This document shows, one piece after another, positions 2,907-13,419 of a stretch of 17,411 nt of DNA. Positions within the stretch are counted from its first letter, which is position 1, and each line of letters begins with the position of its first letter. The stretch lies in assembly GCA_900299205.1 (NCBI GenBank), contig OMIW01000116.1:1-17411 (forward strand). Reading direction: 5' to 3'. The notes beneath the pieces are model-generated. The model was not told the origin of the DNA and did not search any database. It saw only the letters and a list, made by a program, of their open reading frames with translations. The stretch is from Pseudomonadota bacterium. GTDB taxonomy: Bacteria > Bdellovibrionota_C > UBA2361 > OMIW01. The translations under genes were made by a program, and so were the position numbers.

Positions 2907-4055
2907 TCAACCGTGGCCTCGGTCGCGAAAATGCGGAAAAACCCGCATTACCCAAGCCATCAAACGCCTCCCATCCGCTGCCACACAGGCGATAGGATGC
3001 AAAACTATGTCAGGAATCGATCCCGGCGACTCTTCATCGGGACACCATTTTTCAGCGCCATAGATCGTTACGAGGGCGATCGCCACTGCCGGCACAAAAT
3101 CAACGACGTAGTGCTGGAACGAGTACAATGCCCCGCACACATTTAGAACGCAAAGCGGGATCATCACGACGAGGGTGTACCGATGCACGAGGAAAAGACC
3201 GTACGCAATAATCAAATAGCCCCCAACGTGGAAACTCGGGAAACTGCTCACTGCGTATATCCCTTGCGAGGGATTACTCCATACGGTCGATAATTTTTTG
3301 AGAAGCGCATCAAGCTCTGGAATGATCGTCAGCTGTCTAAGGCTAACGGTGACCGCTTCCATTCCGGGCATATCCCCCAGCACCCCCTGCCGAAAAAGCT
3401 CCTCGGGGCTAACAGCCGGTACGAAAGCCCAGCATGGGAGCGCGAGCACCGTCCAAGCAACCATAGCACAATTAAATCGACGGGCTGCATACATCCCTCG
3501 GACCAATGTCGCGAGGAAGGTTACTAATCCAAGCGAGCTAAAAAGAAGATAGGCCTGAATGCTAACAGCTCCGATGAATCGAGGAAGCATTCGATGGATC
3601 TCGAAGACGGGATAACAACCGAATACCGCTCGATCAACCTCCATGAGGAACATACTGATCCGCTTTACCCGATCTGGATCCTGACGCGAAAGGTATGTCA
3701 GCGCGAGCGCATTCGCGATATTAACAGCACATATTCCCCCATACACGACGATAGCCGTCGCAAAAAATTGGAACCCGCTTGCCAACCCCCTTCGGGGGGC
3801 AGCAAGGCCCTCTTCAATCGAACGCCACGGAACGTAAAAAATAAGGAGCAGAAGAAGAAACTTCAGTTCTGGTGGCCCCGCAAGAAGGAAAAATAGAGGA
3901 CCCCGCACTCCACCTATTCCTGAAAAAACCTCTGCGAAATCAAATCGGGGGAATAAAAGCATTCCTAAAAATGCCACGATCGGATACACAAAGAATAGCC
4001 AAAACTCCGGCATTTTGAACAATTCATGAACAAAATTAGATCGATACTTTTTCAA
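2907..4055 (-). CDS. PAP2/Aur1-like integral membrane phosphatase or phosphotransferase
   Basis: 382-residue protein with many hydrophobic segments (for example 18-35, 53-75, 95-120, 162-186, 198-213, 280-305, 318-335). Two PAP2 signature blocks are visible near the C-terminus: SSFPSFH (270-276) and HYVVDF (315-320), with His276 and His315 as the expected catalytic pair and Asp319 beside it. This spacing resembles the PAP2_3 group (PF14378), which includes eukaryotic inositol-phosphoceramide synthase Aur1 and bacterial relatives. It probably dephosphorylates a lipid or transfers a head group at the membrane; the substrate is unknown. The start is TTG at 4055-4053 with a strong AAGGAG site (4067-4062) six bases upstream. 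It is convergent with the NTPase gene and divergent from the DUF423 gene. Confidence 0.8.
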   Translation of the reverse strand: MKKYRSNFVHELFKMPEFWLFFVYPIVAFLGMLLFPRFDFAEVFSGIGGVRGPLFFLLAGPPELKFLLLLLIFYVPWRSIEEGLAAPRRGLASGFQFFATAIVVYGGICAVNIANALALTYLSRQDPDRVKRISMFLMEVDRAVFGCYPVFEIHRMLPRFIGAVSIQAYLLFSSLGLVTFLATLVRGMYAARRFNCAMVAWTVLALPCWAFVPAVSPEELFRQGVLGDMPGMEAVTVSLRQLTIIPELDALLKKLSTVWSNPSQGIYAVSSFPSFHVGGYLIIAYGLFLVHRYTLVVMIPLCVLNVCGALYSFQHYVVDFVPAVAIALVTIYGAEKWCPDEESPGSIPDIVLHPIACVAADGRRLMAWVMRVFPHFRDRGHG

Positions 4056-7460: not shown

Positions 7461-8438
7461 CTAGCTCTGATAGCGCCATCCGCGTATTAAGAGAAAAAGC
7501 CCGAAAGGTATCTCTATGAGAGGAGTCAATACACCGGCAGCCACCTCGAACGGAGGATATATAATCCGTCCCAAGAGATCTGCAGCGAGAACTACTGCCC
7601 CCCCCAATAAAAAAACAGCCGGGGTAAGGCGCCGAAAATCAGAGCCAACGAATCGACGACACACCTGAGGCTCGAGGATACCAACAAATCCAATTCCCCC
7701 ACACGCTGAGATAGCTGCTCCAACTCCAACGCTCATACTTATCATGAGTGATCGTTCAAGAGCTTGAACGGCAACGCCTCGGGACGCCGCTGCATCACGA
7801 CCAAGAGCCAGCGCGTTCAAGGATAGAGCCCTGTACCAGATTCGAGTAAACATCCAGCATGCAACCGCCATGAGAATTACCGCTTCTACCCATGACAACG
7901 GAGGTATGGATCCGATAAGCCATATTACAATCCGAGAAAGAGCAGCGGGGTCCGCAATTGATTGCACGAACAGGATAAGACTCGCCACCAGATAATTAAC
8001 TAAAATGCCAATCAATACGATCTGACCAGAAGGAGCTCTTTCAACGATTCGAGCAAGGCTTAGAAGCAGAAAACTAATGAGGGCCGCTCCCGTTATGGCC
8101 CCTAACGATGATGCCGAGGACAGCGGGAGCGATAGCCCAAACAGTATCACAAGAGTTGCCCCCAAAGCCGCACCACCGGAGACGCCCAGGGTCGTAGGCG
8201 TTGCCAAGGGATTTTGAACCATCGTCTGACAGACGAGACCCGCCGTCGCCAGAATCCCCCCCACCGAGAAGGCCACAACAGCTCGGGGCAATCTCATACG
8301 GGTAATAATTACTACTCCTTCGTCCGACAAAGAAAAGCCGTCCCACGCATCGAAGGCCCCAACGAATGGAGATATTGCGACCAAAAGGAGGGAAAAAAAA
8401 ATGAACGGTGCTAGGGCGAATGGCAGGGAACGAGACAT
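7461..8438 (-). CDS. btuC: Cobalamin ABC transporter permease (FecCD/BtuC family)
   Basis: 325 residues, close to E. coli BtuC (326), with about ten hydrophobic segments. It would form the homodimeric inner-membrane channel through which BtuD drives B12. Family features include the N-terminal RLPRAVVAFSVGGILATAGLVCQTMVQNPLATPTTLG block and the GFVGI...DFRRLTPAVFLLGGAVVLAADLLGR block near the C-terminus. In the latter the usual PHxxR reads PQVCR, and the usual ELPxG reads EVAAG, so this permease is divergent. The substrate is assigned from the upstream riboswitch and the btuB gene. The ATG at 8438 lies within the 3' end of btuD (28-bp overlap), which suggests coupling. Confidence 0.88.
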   Translation of the reverse strand: MSRSLPFALAPFIFFSLLLVAISPFVGAFDAWDGFSLSDEGVVIITRMRLPRAVVAFSVGGILATAGLVCQTMVQNPLATPTTLGVSGGAALGATLVILFGLSLPLSSASSLGAITGAALISFLLLSLARIVERAPSGQIVLIGILVNYLVASLILFVQSIADPAALSRIVIWLIGSIPPLSWVEAVILMAVACWMFTRIWYRALSLNALALGRDAAASRGVAVQALERSLMISMSVGVGAAISACGGIGFVGILEPQVCRRFVGSDFRRLTPAVFLLGGAVVLAADLLGRIIYPPFEVAAGVLTPLIEIPFGLFLLIRGWRYQS

Positions 8439-9196
8439 GGAAAACGACCAAGAGGATCAATAATCACCCGAAGCGGGCGGGCATACATCGTCGTTAATAC
8501 ACTTGATTGAAGAAGTTCATCTCTTCTCCCGTCAAATGCAATCCCTTGGTTGGTCAGCGCGATCATCCGAGAGGCGTAAGAGATTAGCAAAGATACGTCG
8601 TGACAGACAACGAGCACCCCGAACTGCTCCTCGAGACAGAGGTAAGCCAGCAGCTCCATCACCTCATGAGCTGCGCTCAGATCGAGAAATGTAGTTGGCT
8701 CATCGAGGATGAGGAACCGAGCTTCCTGAGCGACTGCAGACGCCACAAGAACCCGCTGTTGTTCTCCTCCTGAGAGTTCATCGAATAATCGGGCTCGCAG
8801 ATGAGCAACTTGGGCGAGGCCAAGAGCCCGCTCTATTCCGTCTCGGCATTTACTCAAATGACCTGTATGCCGGGAAAAAAATCGGACCCGTCCAGTAGCA
8901 ACAACCTGTTCGACAGTCATCCCGGTTCCTGCTGGGAGCCGAGTTTGCGGAATGTAGGAGAACCATGAGGCCCTTTCGTGATGAGTCAGCGAGTCGAGAT
9001 CTCGGTCCGCGATTGCTATATTACCCGTTGTTGCAGGGTTGAGACCAATCAGCGTCCTCAAAAGAGTTGTTTTCCCTATACCATTCGGTCCGATCAATCC
9101 AACGAATTCGGCCTGATTGAGGCAAAATGACAGAGGTGGGAGTCGTGTTGTTCCAGAGTTGGTAACTGACAAATTAGTGACAACGATCTGATTCAT
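8411..9196 (-). CDS. btuD: Cobalamin ABC transporter ATP-binding protein
   Basis: 261-residue ABC ATPase that powers the BtuC permease. Walker A is GPNGIGKTT (36-44), the Q-loop is YIPQT (Gln84), the signature is LSGGEQQ (141-147), Walker B is FLILDEP (161-167), the D-loop is FLDLS, and the switch histidine is His199 in VVCHD. The sequence is of the FecE/FhuC/BtuD iron-cobalamin type. It starts at ATG 9196, 15 bp after the btuF stop, without a strong binding site, and it overlaps btuC by 28 bp. Confidence 0.92.
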   Translation of the reverse strand: MNQIVVTNLSVTNSGTTRLPPLSFCLNQAEFVGLIGPNGIGKTTLLRTLIGLNPATTGNIAIADRDLDSLTHHERASWFSYIPQTRLPAGTGMTVEQVVATGRVRFFSRHTGHLSKCRDGIERALGLAQVAHLRARLFDELSGGEQQRVLVASAVAQEARFLILDEPTTFLDLSAAHEVMELLAYLCLEEQFGVLVVCHDVSLLISYASRMIALTNQGIAFDGRRDELLQSSVLTTMYARPLRVIIDPLGRFPCLVPCHSP

Positions 9197-9211: not shown

Positions 9212-10117
9212 CTAACCAGGCGACATTTCTTCGTGAGATATTCTCTTTCTCCGCAAAAAATCCTCAATCTCCCTCAGTAGAATATCAAATCGCGGTCCAG
9301 GTATGCTTGCGTAATCAGCATCAAGGATAGAAATTGAATCCGATGCCACCGCGGGGATCATCGGCCAGTTTTTCCACCACGCCTGTCTCGTTTTGGCCTC
9401 ACTTTCAGACAATTTCCGGTCAAACACCTCGAATATCACCGTCGGTTTGCTTGCGATGATACCCTCCATTGATATCTGAGAGAGGGACATCGTGGGAGTT
9501 TCTATAACTGGGCGTGCCCCCGTAAAGGATAGAAGCTCCCAATAGAATCCATCGATGCCTGAAACAAACAGATTCGAACTATCTGAGATGGACCCGGCAG
9601 AGGTAATAGTCACCAGGACACGGTGGCCCCTCCCCACATTATTCAGGATCGCCCCATCGATGGCTTCTTTTCGCTCCTCCCGAAGAGCAAGCCCCTTTTC
9701 GTGACGACCGCAGGCAGTGCCGATTGCCCCAATCGATTCCATTATTCCTGAAACGGTATGGTGATCAGCTATCAGAGTATCAATGCCGAGCTTTTTAAGT
9801 GCCGTTATCGTCGTGGCCATCTCCGATAAGACAAGCACAATTGTCGGTCGAAAACTAGCGATTAGTTCTGTTGATGAATCTAGTCCCCCTCCGACATTCG
9901 GAAGGCGTTTAACCGAAGACGGGAAATTATCGTATTTTGTTACCGCCACCACCGCCTCACCAAGATCGAGCGCAAATGCTATCTCGGTGAGGCTCGGCGC
10001 TAGTGATACGATTCGAGAGCAGAGATGGCTGGGGGCAGATTCCGCCAAAGCAAAAGGCATCCTACACGCCCCCAGAATCGCGAGAATAATCCCGACACGA
10101 TTGATTTCGCGTCCCAA
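9212..10117 (-). CDS. btuF: Cobalamin-binding periplasmic protein
   Basis: Class-III helical-backbone binding protein that captures B12 in the periplasm and delivers it to BtuC. It has the family start RIVSLAPSLTEIAFALDLGEAVVAVTKYDNFP, the FRPTIVLVLS stretch, and a C-terminal DADYASIPGPRFDILL. I place the start at TTG 10117: GGGGG lies about six bases upstream, the codon follows the btuB stop by one base (TAAgTTG), and the product begins MGREINR followed by a clean hydrophobic core ending PFALA (302 aa). An in-frame start at 10171 would overlap btuB by 53 bp and prepend a non-signal sequence. The segment ILGAC (14-18) also resembles a lipobox, so it might be a lipoprotein with Cys18. Confidence 0.88.
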   Translation of the reverse strand: MGREINRVGIILAILGACRMPFALAESAPSHLCSRIVSLAPSLTEIAFALDLGEAVVAVTKYDNFPSSVKRLPNVGGGLDSSTELIASFRPTIVLVLSEMATTITALKKLGIDTLIADHHTVSGIMESIGAIGTACGRHEKGLALREERKEAIDGAILNNVGRGHRVLVTITSAGSISDSSNLFVSGIDGFYWELLSFTGARPVIETPTMSLSQISMEGIIASKPTVIFEVFDRKLSESEAKTRQAWWKNWPMIPAVASDSISILDADYASIPGPRFDILLREIEDFLRRKRISHEEMSPG

Positions 10118-10118
10118 C

Positions 10119-12110
10119 TTACACCCCCGAGCCGAACCGATATCGAAGGCCAGCATACGCCCCGAATCCAAAGGTACCGTATCCGTTTACCTCGTTATAC
10201 CTCTTATCAAGCACATTATTCACCTGAATGTTAAGAAGAATTCTCTCAGTCAGTTCAGCCTGGGCCCCAATCCGCAAAAGCCCATACCCAGGGAGCCCTA
10301 TTCGCTCTGCACCACCCCGCGAAAAATCGAGATCAAGCCGCTCCCCTACCACCGTGTAACCACCTATGAGGGAATACCGCTTGGCGAAGCGATAGCTGGC
10401 GCTAAAATCTGCCATGTTTCGCGCTCGTCTCAGGAGGCGCTGGCCTGTCTCAGCGTCTGTCGGATCGGTGTAAGTGTAGTTCGCAAGAAGATCTAAATTG
10501 CTCGATACGGACCAACGAGCAGTTACCTCTACCCCGCGTGTCCGAGCTTCGTTGATATTCTGAAATAGAAAGGTGGTCGGATCAAAATTTATGAGATTGG
10601 TAAGCTTATTATTGAAGTAATTCGCCTCAAACAATACGTCTCTCTCACAAAACGACTGCTCGATACCAACATCCCATCCGACACTTCGCTCGGGCATAAG
10701 ATTCCGATCTCCATACGGAGAGAATATCTGGTAAAGCGACGGAGCTTTATAGCCCGTACCGACACTCGCCCGGATTTTCGTGGCACGCCCCCCGAAAACA
10801 TATTGGGGCGCAAATCGCCACGTCCCTCGGGGATCAAATCGCTGATTGTCATCGAGACGAGCAGAACCTTCCAGAATGAGTCCCTCAAGAGGTTGCCCCC
10901 TCACCTGGAGGAATCCGCCATTTGTCCTCGCCGATTTCTCGGGAAGATCCTCGGTGTAGGGACCGAACGCGGACTCAGATCGATAGCTCGATTGAGCTAC
11001 CTCCTCAATGACCTCAATGCCGGCAATTGCCGATACAGCCTCGAAAGGATCTACCTGAACCGTTCCGAATCCTTTCATGAGCCGCCCATCATACGAACTC
11101 CTCAAAAGATCATCCGGATGAAGCGTATCGGGGTCATTATTATCGTCCAGGGCATGATCTGATATGGTGAACCCCAGCGAGGGTTTGATAATTCCAGACG
11201 CCAGCCCTCCTTCTGCAACGACTGATGCCGCAATCGTCCGATTATCAACCTTACGATTGGGATCATCTCCCCCAGCCCCTCCAAAATTATCTATCTCCGT
11301 CTCTGATTGGTTAACCCGAAGGGTACTGCGCAGAGAAAACTGCTCTGTTGGAGTATAGCCCACTTGACCGGCAAAGCCCGTGACATCATTCCCGTCTTTC
11401 TCTCTATTACCATCCCTCCGATCCGCAGCAGAAACACCGTCAGTATGGGCCTGAGAAACTGCAACGCTGTAGTCGATGTCCCCTAGTTGTCCCGAACGCG
11501 ATGCTCCAAATCGCCCTGTCCCAAAACTACCCCCTTCTGCCTCTAGAGTTGATGAGGGCTCTCTCTGACCTTTTTTGGTTATGATTGAAATCACCCCCCC
11601 GAGTGCGTCGGAGCCATAAAGGCTACTTTGAGGCCCCCTGATAATCTCGATACGCTCGACATTGTCGAGTGGTAGATTTGCAAGATTGAACAGCCTTGAT
11701 GGCGTTACGGGATTATTCATCAAGATTCCATCAACGAGCACGAGGGTATGCTCAGCATTTGCTCCTCTGATGAATACGGAGACATTCCCTCCGGGAGGAC
11801 CGCTTTGAACAACATTAATCCCGGGTTGGGTTCTCAAAACTTCGGCTACGGTGGTCGCGCCGGACCGTTCTATGGTTTCCGAATCAATTATGGTTAAGGC
11901 AGAGGAAATGTCCTGAACTCGCCCCTTGAGGCGGTCGGCAAAAATAACAATCTCTGGGGCAAGCGATTCCCCCTCTCGGACGATCTCTTGCGCCGCAGCG
12001 GGGGAAATATGATTTATTGAAAAAAGAGAGAACAAAGTAAGTGCGCCCGACAACTGCGCACACGACCGAGCAGTGCGCAGCGAAGCTGCGCGTCGAGAAA
12101 GATTTATCAT
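10119..12110 (-). CDS. btuB: TonB-dependent outer-membrane cobalamin receptor
   Basis: 22-stranded beta-barrel receptor that imports B12 across the outer membrane with energy from TonB. From the ATG at 12110 it is 663 residues, with a long signal peptide ending SPAAA-QE. A TonB-box-like EIVIFADRL precedes the plug domain, which has GINVVQSGPPGGNVSVFIRG, TLVLVDG, VERIEIIRGPQSSLYGSDALGGVISI. The barrel ends in GLRYRF followed by four extra residues, GSGV. The start is uncertain: in-frame GTG codons at 12170 and 12152 and TTG at 12128 extend the frame, but only the ATG gives a normal signal peptide; its binding site is poor. The cobalamin riboswitch upstream supports B12 as ligand. No tonB or exbBD is in the window. 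Confidence 0.92.
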   Translation of the reverse strand: MINLSRRAASLRTARSCAQLSGALTLFSLFSINHISPAAAQEIVREGESLAPEIVIFADRLKGRVQDISSALTIIDSETIERSGATTVAEVLRTQPGINVVQSGPPGGNVSVFIRGANAEHTLVLVDGILMNNPVTPSRLFNLANLPLDNVERIEIIRGPQSSLYGSDALGGVISIITKKGQREPSSTLEAEGGSFGTGRFGASRSGQLGDIDYSVAVSQAHTDGVSAADRRDGNREKDGNDVTGFAGQVGYTPTEQFSLRSTLRVNQSETEIDNFGGAGGDDPNRKVDNRTIAASVVAEGGLASGIIKPSLGFTISDHALDDNNDPDTLHPDDLLRSSYDGRLMKGFGTVQVDPFEAVSAIAGIEVIEEVAQSSYRSESAFGPYTEDLPEKSARTNGGFLQVRGQPLEGLILEGSARLDDNQRFDPRGTWRFAPQYVFGGRATKIRASVGTGYKAPSLYQIFSPYGDRNLMPERSVGWDVGIEQSFCERDVLFEANYFNNKLTNLINFDPTTFLFQNINEARTRGVEVTARWSVSSNLDLLANYTYTDPTDAETGQRLLRRARNMADFSASYRFAKRYSLIGGYTVVGERLDLDFSRGGAERIGLPGYGLLRIGAQAELTERILLNIQVNNVLDKRYNEVNGYGTFGFGAYAGLRYRFGSGV

Positions 12111-12180
12111 CTGAGGAAATAATCTCAATGTGTTTACAATGCCCCAATCCACGAGAGCATTGCTAGGCACCGCGACTTGC

Positions 12181-12222
12181 CCGCACCGAGAAAGAGCAGG
12201 GTCTCGGGGCGAAAGCCCCTTT
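12181..12222 (-). promoter_or_regulatory. Likely expression platform of the riboswitch
   Basis: Between the riboswitch core and btuB, a GGGGC-tttc-GCCCC hairpin (12219-12206) overlaps a possible alternative stem in which CCGAGA just after it pairs with TCTCGG further downstream. The two cannot form fully together. There is no U-tract, so control at translation initiation is more likely than intrinsic termination. This is inference from pairing by eye. Confidence 0.4.
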
Positions 12223-12229
12223 GTCGGGA

Positions 12230-12647
12230 AAACACCAGGTCTTCTGGCTCAGCTGAACGTGCTCGACACCTCGGTGATGAACAAAAAAAGTTCTCCGTCT
12301 CCGATGGCCGCACTCCTGCAGTTAGAGTCTTCCCAGCATAACGCCAGTGACTGTGAATCGGCTCTCCGAGAACTTGCATCACGAATGATGAAAATTATCT
12401 TTCTCGGGGGCTACTTACATAACTCGTCGGCTGGGATGCGCCAAAGGAGGCTCCCCCCACAACGACCAAGTAAGCGAACTGCAGTCTCTTTTTCAACCTC
12501 ACAGCGGCGGGACCGCGGCGGATTAAAACCGCACTTCCTTGAGGTGCTTCCCGGCCATCGTGGCAATCTCATGAGGGGAATGTCAATACTTCTCTGTTGT
12601 CGCAAAAGTGGTGCGCCTCCTAACCCGGGAAAAACGAACAGGTGTTT
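12230..12647 (-). ncRNA. Cobalamin riboswitch (expanded)
   Basis: Read on the minus strand, the conserved pieces occur in the right order: GGGAA (12552-12548), the GCGGTTTTAATCCGC hairpin, CCCGCCGCTGTGA ending at 12499, the B12-box-like GTCACTGGCG (12351-12342; usual GCCACTGG), CTGGGAAGAC (12336-12327), and the 3' signature AGCCAGAAGACCTG (12249-12236). AAACAC (12647-12642) can pair with GTGTTT (12235-12230) as P1. Three intervals are unusually long: 89 nt between P1 and GGGAA, 147 nt between CTGTGA and the B12 box, and 77 nt before the 3' signature. It controls the btu operon, presumably reducing expression when B12 is plentiful. The 5' boundary is the least certain part. Confidence 0.9.
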
Positions 12648-12777: not shown

Positions 12778-12840
12778 GCTCGCGCCCGCCTTTCGTCTGT
12801 AGTAGGATACCTCCACATATCTAATTTGAGGGAGTTTTTT

Positions 12841-13419
12841 TTGACCACTTTTAGACCTGCCGGGCCACGACCGAGCCGAAATGTTCGCTCTCGCCCCCTA
12901 CCGACCCCTGATACCCACCGCATCAATAGCCGAATCATCGCCCGGGAGGTGAGAGTCATCGATGATGCCGGGGGGCAGCTCGGCATATTTCCCCTCCGCG
13001 AGGCGATCGAGCTGGCTGAGGGTCGAGAATTGGACCTTGTTGAGGTCGCTCCTGAGGCAAAACCGCCCGTTTGTCGTATTATGGACTACGGTAAGTTTAA
13101 ATATCGGGAACAGAAGAAAGAGGCCGAAGCTCGGAAGAAACGGTCAGAGTCGACCATGAAGGAGATTCGGCTCCGATACCGCACCGATGTTGGGGATCTC
13201 GAGACCAAATTGAAGCACGCGAGGGAATTTCTCCAAGGGGGAGAAAAGGTGAAGTTCTCTATGCGGTTCAAGGGCCGTGAGGTAATGTACCTCGGCCTTG
13301 GTCAGGAGAAATTTGAATCTATCAGCCAAAGACTTGCCGATATTGCTCAGGTTGAGGAAAAAAGCCCTTTGGCAGGCCGAAGCATTCATATAGTTCTAGC
13401 TCCAGCAAAGGCAAAGTAA
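12841..13419 (+). CDS. infC: Translation initiation factor IF-3
   Basis: Binds the 30S subunit and checks initiator-tRNA and start-codon selection. It has an N-terminal domain (NSRIIAREVRVIDDAGGQLGIFPLREAIELAEGRELDLVEVAPEAKPPVCRIMDYGKFKYREQKK), a charged helical linker, and a C-terminal domain (MKEIRLRYRTDVGDLETKLKHAREFL to VKFSMRFKGRE). I choose TTG 12841: GAGGGAG (12828-12834) lies six Ts upstream, giving 192 residues. The TTG at 12826 would leave the binding site inside the gene. A non-ATG start suits this gene, since E. coli infC uses AUU for autoregulation. Neither thrS upstream nor rpmI-rplT downstream is present. Confidence 0.95.
   Translation: MTTFRPAGPRPSRNVRSRPLPTPDTHRINSRIIAREVRVIDDAGGQLGIFPLREAIELAEGRELDLVEVAPEAKPPVCRIMDYGKFKYREQKKEAEARKKRSESTMKEIRLRYRTDVGDLETKLKHAREFLQGGEKVKFSMRFKGREVMYLGLGQEKFESISQRLADIAQVEEKSPLAGRSIHIVLAPAKAK

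Follow-up and report, generated by a model that had tools for sequence, protein, structure and literature searches.

A cobalamin riboswitch with one large and one moderate peripheral insertion in the leader of a B12 uptake operon

The leader of a btuB-like gene in the window (the whole 17,411-nucleotide stretch of DNA analyzed here) raises the question of what an oversized cobalamin riboswitch is made of. An earlier note had mapped to this leader an RNA of about 418 nt interrupted by three large insertions, which might form peripheral helices or hide a nested element. Is the element a real riboswitch, how long is it, and which of the insertions are genuine?

The cobalamin aptamer core proposed earlier is indeed present, on the minus strand (as are all riboswitch and operon features described below) in front of a btuB-btuF-btuD-btuC operon. 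Rfam does not report the whole element at the gathering cut-off of its Cobalamin model, RF00174, which lies at 31.5 bits and serves to set a detection limit, not to define the structure. With relaxed settings, positions 12586-12448 are matched at 23.2 bits, with the 5′ half correct and the 3′ half wrongly placed. The covariance search called for in the earlier note therefore falls short on the whole element, but succeeds on its parts. The 5′ half alone matches model positions 47-149, and the 3′ half alone (12360-12217) matches model positions 100-189, including the CACTG...GGGAAG arm and the B12 box. The total score is below the cut-off because the inserts separate the two halves of the model, and the separate matches argue that the element is real and that its internal length is more than the model can bridge. 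Over about 40 nt, the P4-P5 core with CCCGCCNCTGTRA (12532-12499) shares 78-92% identity with same-order leaders; together with the two partial matches and the site upstream of btuB, this excludes a chance match. No other RF00174 match occurs in the 2.45-Mb draft genome (206 contigs). Judged by its sequence, the element is a real cobalamin riboswitch.

The genes downstream fit this assignment. The regulated gene (10119-12110, with its ATG at 12110) encodes a btuB-like TonB-dependent receptor with Pfam Plug and barrel domains, whose best family is TIGR01779 (TonB-B12; E 5.8e-97, a match below the equivalog cut-off of that family). It is followed by a btuF-like periplasmic binding protein (9212-10171; best family BtuF), an ABC ATPase identified by domain and family search that is btuD-like by position (8411-9196), and a FecCD permease whose best family is BtuC (7461-8438). 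The genome, at 90% completeness, encodes three B12-binding proteins and yields no match to CobS, in line with a B12 scavenger.

Twenty-seven genomes of the same order, from other families, served for comparison. In many, an RF00174 element of ∼160-250 nt directly precedes the gene for a BtuB homologue, and in these leaders P1 stands immediately before the GGGAAG box, joined to it by a short linker, often UUCAA and elsewhere CGCCA. Most of them (for example L012, L021, L025 and L026) lack the usual P2-P3 hairpin and run from P1 through the linker to the GGGAA box. We aligned 19 leaders in blocks covering P1, P3, P4, P5, P6 and P13, with the register set by hand from the conserved boxes and with N entered for the G that the window's box lacks (and for one missing base in leader L030), so that the alignment depends in part on how the boxes were read. 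In this alignment 90.6% of cells are paired, and 21 of the 29 pairs show changes on both sides. Cells changed on both sides number 113, against a mean of 34.5 for shuffled alignments and with none of 500 shuffles reaching 113, and pairing drops to 36-49% when the blocks are slid. All 29 pairs form in the window, among them the long-range pairs of P1, P3 and P6 with and around the B12 box, and covariation in the relatives is strong for P1 and P6. At the level of sequence comparison, the core, P1, P3, P6, P13 and the operon context are established.

Read from its 5′ end, the aptamer begins with the P1 strand GGGAAGCACC (12543-12552), which pairs with GGTGTTTTCCC (12226-12236) at a predicted −14.4 kcal/mol; all eight P1 pairs show changes on both sides across the 19 leaders. 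The linker and P3/J3-4 box follow as TCAAGGAAG (12534-12542), where many relatives have TTCAAGGGAAG and one G is missing here. The functional box is accordingly AAGGAA (12540-12535), one G short of the AAGGGAA or close variant in aligned relatives; a GGGAA box is present in 74 of 83 candidates detected by pattern. The GGGAA singled out in the earlier note belongs instead to the P1 strand. P4 (GCGG-TTTTAAT-CCGC, 12518-12532), placed by the RF00174 alignment and by its pairs in the block alignment, has the loop TTTTAAT, whereas nearly all aligned relatives start this loop with TG. P5 (GC-GGTCCC-GC, 12507-12516) presents a loop, L5 (12514-12509), proposed as the kissing partner of L13. The conserved CTGTGA box (12499-12504), found by both the RF00174 alignment and the pattern scan, is followed by the P6 strand GGTTGAA (12492-12498), which pairs with TTCAGCT (12251-12257); the five P6 pairs counted all show changes on both sides in relatives.

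Beyond P6, P7 is an 8-bp match of CTGCAGTT (12477-12484) with AACTGCAG (12316-12323) that pairs across an insert and has normal flanking spacers. The P10/P11 arm, GTCACTG...TGGGAAG (12329-12351), identified by a truncated RF00174 match, is of normal length, with 10 nt between CACTG and GGGAAG compared with 8-50 nt in 23 relatives of the order or class. Its GTCACTG (12351-12345), earlier read as a deviant B12 box, is present as described but is the CACTG box of this arm, and relatives L008 and L016 have TCACTG as well. The B12 box proper, placed following PMC2258182, is AGCCAGAAGACC (12238-12249), which represents the AGYCMGgAGaCC-like 3′ signature, includes part of the 3′ strand of P3 and is identical in relatives. 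The element thus shares with RF00174 the P3-P4-P5-P6 core, the CACTG...GGGAAG arm, the B12 box and a site upstream of B12 uptake genes, and differs in its score, in the G lost from the GGGAA box and in inserts before the CACTG box and after P7.

By spacer comparison, two of the three insertions proposed earlier are genuine, and both sit in the peripheral P7 domain; the third is promoter region, as discussed below. Insertion A (∼125 nt, 12352-12476) lies between P7 and the CACTG box, and insertion B (58 nt, 12258-12315) between P7 and P6. The btuB leaders of the same order (for example L021, L012 and L029) match the window in the position of P1, the UUCAAGG-type linker of many, a P13 with a CTCGTGGATT-type loop and the position of the −35 element. 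They differ in spacing: from P7 to the CACTG box there are 127 nt here and 1-13 nt in 23 relatives of the order or class, and from the 3′ strand of P7 to the B12 box 66 nt here and 8-44 nt in the 23 relatives, where automatic P7 calls are short (3-5 bp) in some cases and may shift spacers by a few bases, leaving the contrast with the window unaffected. That relatives might lack the insertions had been named as a check beforehand, and they do lack them. The 147 nt reported between CTGTGA and GTCACTG (12504-12499 to 12351-12345) agree with our measurement. The 77 nt reported before the 3′ signature do correspond to a long stretch, of 79 nt from GGGAAG to AGCCAGAAGACC. The aptamer spans ∼327 nt and not ∼418 nt, compared with roughly 137-205 nt, summed from spacers, in same-order relatives; two optional outer arms are enlarged, making it ∼120-190 nt longer.

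The expectation of peripheral helices holds in part. The enlarged elements are peripheral, and two hairpins are predicted for most of insertion A (12475-12413 and 12411-12361, the latter with the tip CATCA-TTCG-TGATG), with a z-score against shuffled sequences of −2.03 for the whole and −2.89 for the first hairpin. Insertion B folds weakly, at the level of shuffled sequence (z of roughly −0.3 to −0.4). The idea of a nested element did not survive: among the Rfam matches listed for the whole region up to an E-value of 10, the sole one besides cobalamin is an opposite-strand snoRNA hit that we attribute to chance (E 0.59), and no other bacterial RNA family was found in the span. A mobile or repeated insert is likewise rejected, since neither insert has a second copy elsewhere in the genome, insertion A has no homologue by DNA similarity in the other 44 of 45 class genomes, and a search for direct or inverted repeats found none. 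Plasmids and viral contigs searched for matches gave nothing.

Large inserts in riboswitches have precedent. Barrick and Breaker (PMC2258182) describe many riboswitches that tolerate long nonconserved “variable insertions”, typically stem-loops, and bona fide low-scoring hits in complex classes that carry insertions at unusual positions. Among the ∼100 riboswitch candidates that a pattern scan detected in the loci compared, most of which are btuB leaders, that of Caballeronia zhejiangensis OP-1 (L119) likewise has an insert between P7 and CACTG; at 71 nt it is shorter than insertion A, and it is unrelated in sequence. The btuB leader of Planctomycetota casp150-mb.69 (L077, about 3331-3700) is a giant, with 332 nt from CTGTAA to the B12 box, and is missed by Rfam at the cut-off; its main insertion of 233 nt lies inside the P11 loop, whereas that of the window precedes CACTG. 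A Nitrospira assembly holds a cobalamin riboswitch (L091, about 1356-1530) with a 100-nt expansion of the P11 loop. Long spacings from the regular-expression scan in L056, L070, L082 and L078 were rejected as spurious upstream matches. Weak additional RF00174 hits in genomes G021 and G015 (18.4 bits) were also set aside, no B12 box having been found there. The window element is a riboswitch of a known kind, in which variable outer arms are documented; its inserts are most likely passive variable insertions, presumably neutral.

Alternatively, the enlarged P7 domain could be functional, with one or both inserts docking on the aptamer or binding another factor and so altering affinity, selectivity or folding speed. 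We consider this unlikely. The hairpins of insertion A do fold better than shuffled sequences, and a same-site insert exists in L119, yet the z-scores are modest, insertion B is at shuffled level, all order relatives examined do without insertion A, and insertion A offers no conserved sequence. Some peripheral hairpins may be maintained, as suggested by two sister genomes (L049 and L059) in which the arms of a post-P6 hairpin differ and still pair. In these members of sister genera the arms are CCATAATC/GATTGTGG and CCTAAATC/GATTTAGG, and the hairpin appears maintained. More specifically, the two hairpins of the 125-nt insert might form an additional, maintained domain that modulates cobalamin sensing or contributes to it, by tertiary docking or as a second input. 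This proposal strikes us as improbable; if true, it would represent a lineage-specific enlarged architecture.

We give equally little credence to the possibility that the riboswitch is decaying or misassembled, with the insert being debris or misjoined sequence. The G lost from a conserved box, the draft state of the assembly and the presence of insertion A in no other genome searched would all suit such an origin. Nonetheless, pairing across the inserts is seen for P1, P3, P6, P7 and P13, the operon has intact reading frames, and there are no repeats to cause a misjoin.

The stretch once counted as an 89-nt insertion between P1 and GGGAA has a different character. A putative −35 element, TTGACA (12581-12586), lies within it, upstream of the GGGAA-type box at a distance of 47 nt. 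Counting the window, 18 of 24 leaders (17 of the 23 others) have TTGAC 45-51 nt ahead of this box, compared with a mean of 1.1 and a maximum of 6 in shuffles. From this conserved position it follows that the −35 element falls within the supposed insertion, which is therefore most likely untranscribed. A weak putative −10 element, CACGAT (12557-12562), is proposed by position only, 18 nt after the −35 element, and several relatives carry TAnnnn at the −10 position. Given the weakness of this element and the lack of any promoter in a strict sigma-70 scan, we can only infer the transcription start, which would lie at or just before P1 (∼12552). The divergent infC gene (IF-3, 12826-13419) starts ∼270 nt from the riboswitch start, and the intergenic region serves both directions.

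The original map, a 418-nt RNA with P1 at 12647-12641 and three insertions, is almost certainly wrong: AAACACC at those positions and GGTGTTT are exact complements, but their duplex reaches only −7.0 kcal/mol against −14.4 kcal/mol for the P1 described above, the supposed first insertion contains a conserved −35 element and is less well folded than shuffled sequence (z +1.78), and P1 lies directly 5′ of the box, aligned and covarying, in 18 of 18 aligned relatives, so that the earlier pairing is rejected as a chance complement.

Downstream of P1 lies a hairpin missed by the earlier note, P13 (CAATGCTCT-CGTGGATT-GGGGCATTG, 12137-12162; z −3.85), which carries L13 and in which six of seven pairs show changes on both sides in relatives. 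By inspection, L5 GGUCC(C) can pair with L13 GGAUU, making this a candidate kissing contact; in characterized members, an L5-L13 kissing loop forms on ligand binding and P13 is involved in control (PMC9600662, PMC10653944). Between P1 and P13, a hairpin read from the sequence, GGGGC-TTTC-GCCCC (12206-12219), appears in the unconstrained fold of the whole leader and is absent from the minimum-energy structure of its segment folded alone. Leader L025 carries a hairpin at the same place, and the first arm of the window hairpin could also pair with the 5′ arm of P13, a possible anti-P13 alternative.

These features suggest how the element might act. An AdoCbl/cobalamin riboswitch with a P8-P11 arm would control the btuB-F-D-C uptake operon, cobalamin being the probable ligand in view of the family and the operon. 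Binding to the P3-P6 core would lead L5 to dock on L13 and stabilize P13, which ends ∼26 nt before the btuB start codon. Uptake would be turned down, most likely through hindered ribosome loading, with Rho-dependent termination also possible. Translational control is the likeliest route because a search of the leader found no intrinsic terminator and because of the position of P13, although no strong Shine-Dalgarno sequence precedes btuB, which makes this route uncertain. The account as a whole, a cobalamin riboswitch that controls btuB-F-D-C through L5-L13 and P13 and carries passive inserts, is in our judgment very probably correct.

Overall, this B12 uptake operon is preceded by an ordinary cobalamin riboswitch that carries two variable insertions, one large and one moderate. 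The case illustrates that true riboswitches escape a covariance model built on normal spacing once a peripheral arm grows, and that P1, P13 and the position of the promoter can be recovered by comparing leaders within one order. In biological terms it is an ordinary B12 uptake switch, and its inserts would matter only if they are maintained or functional.
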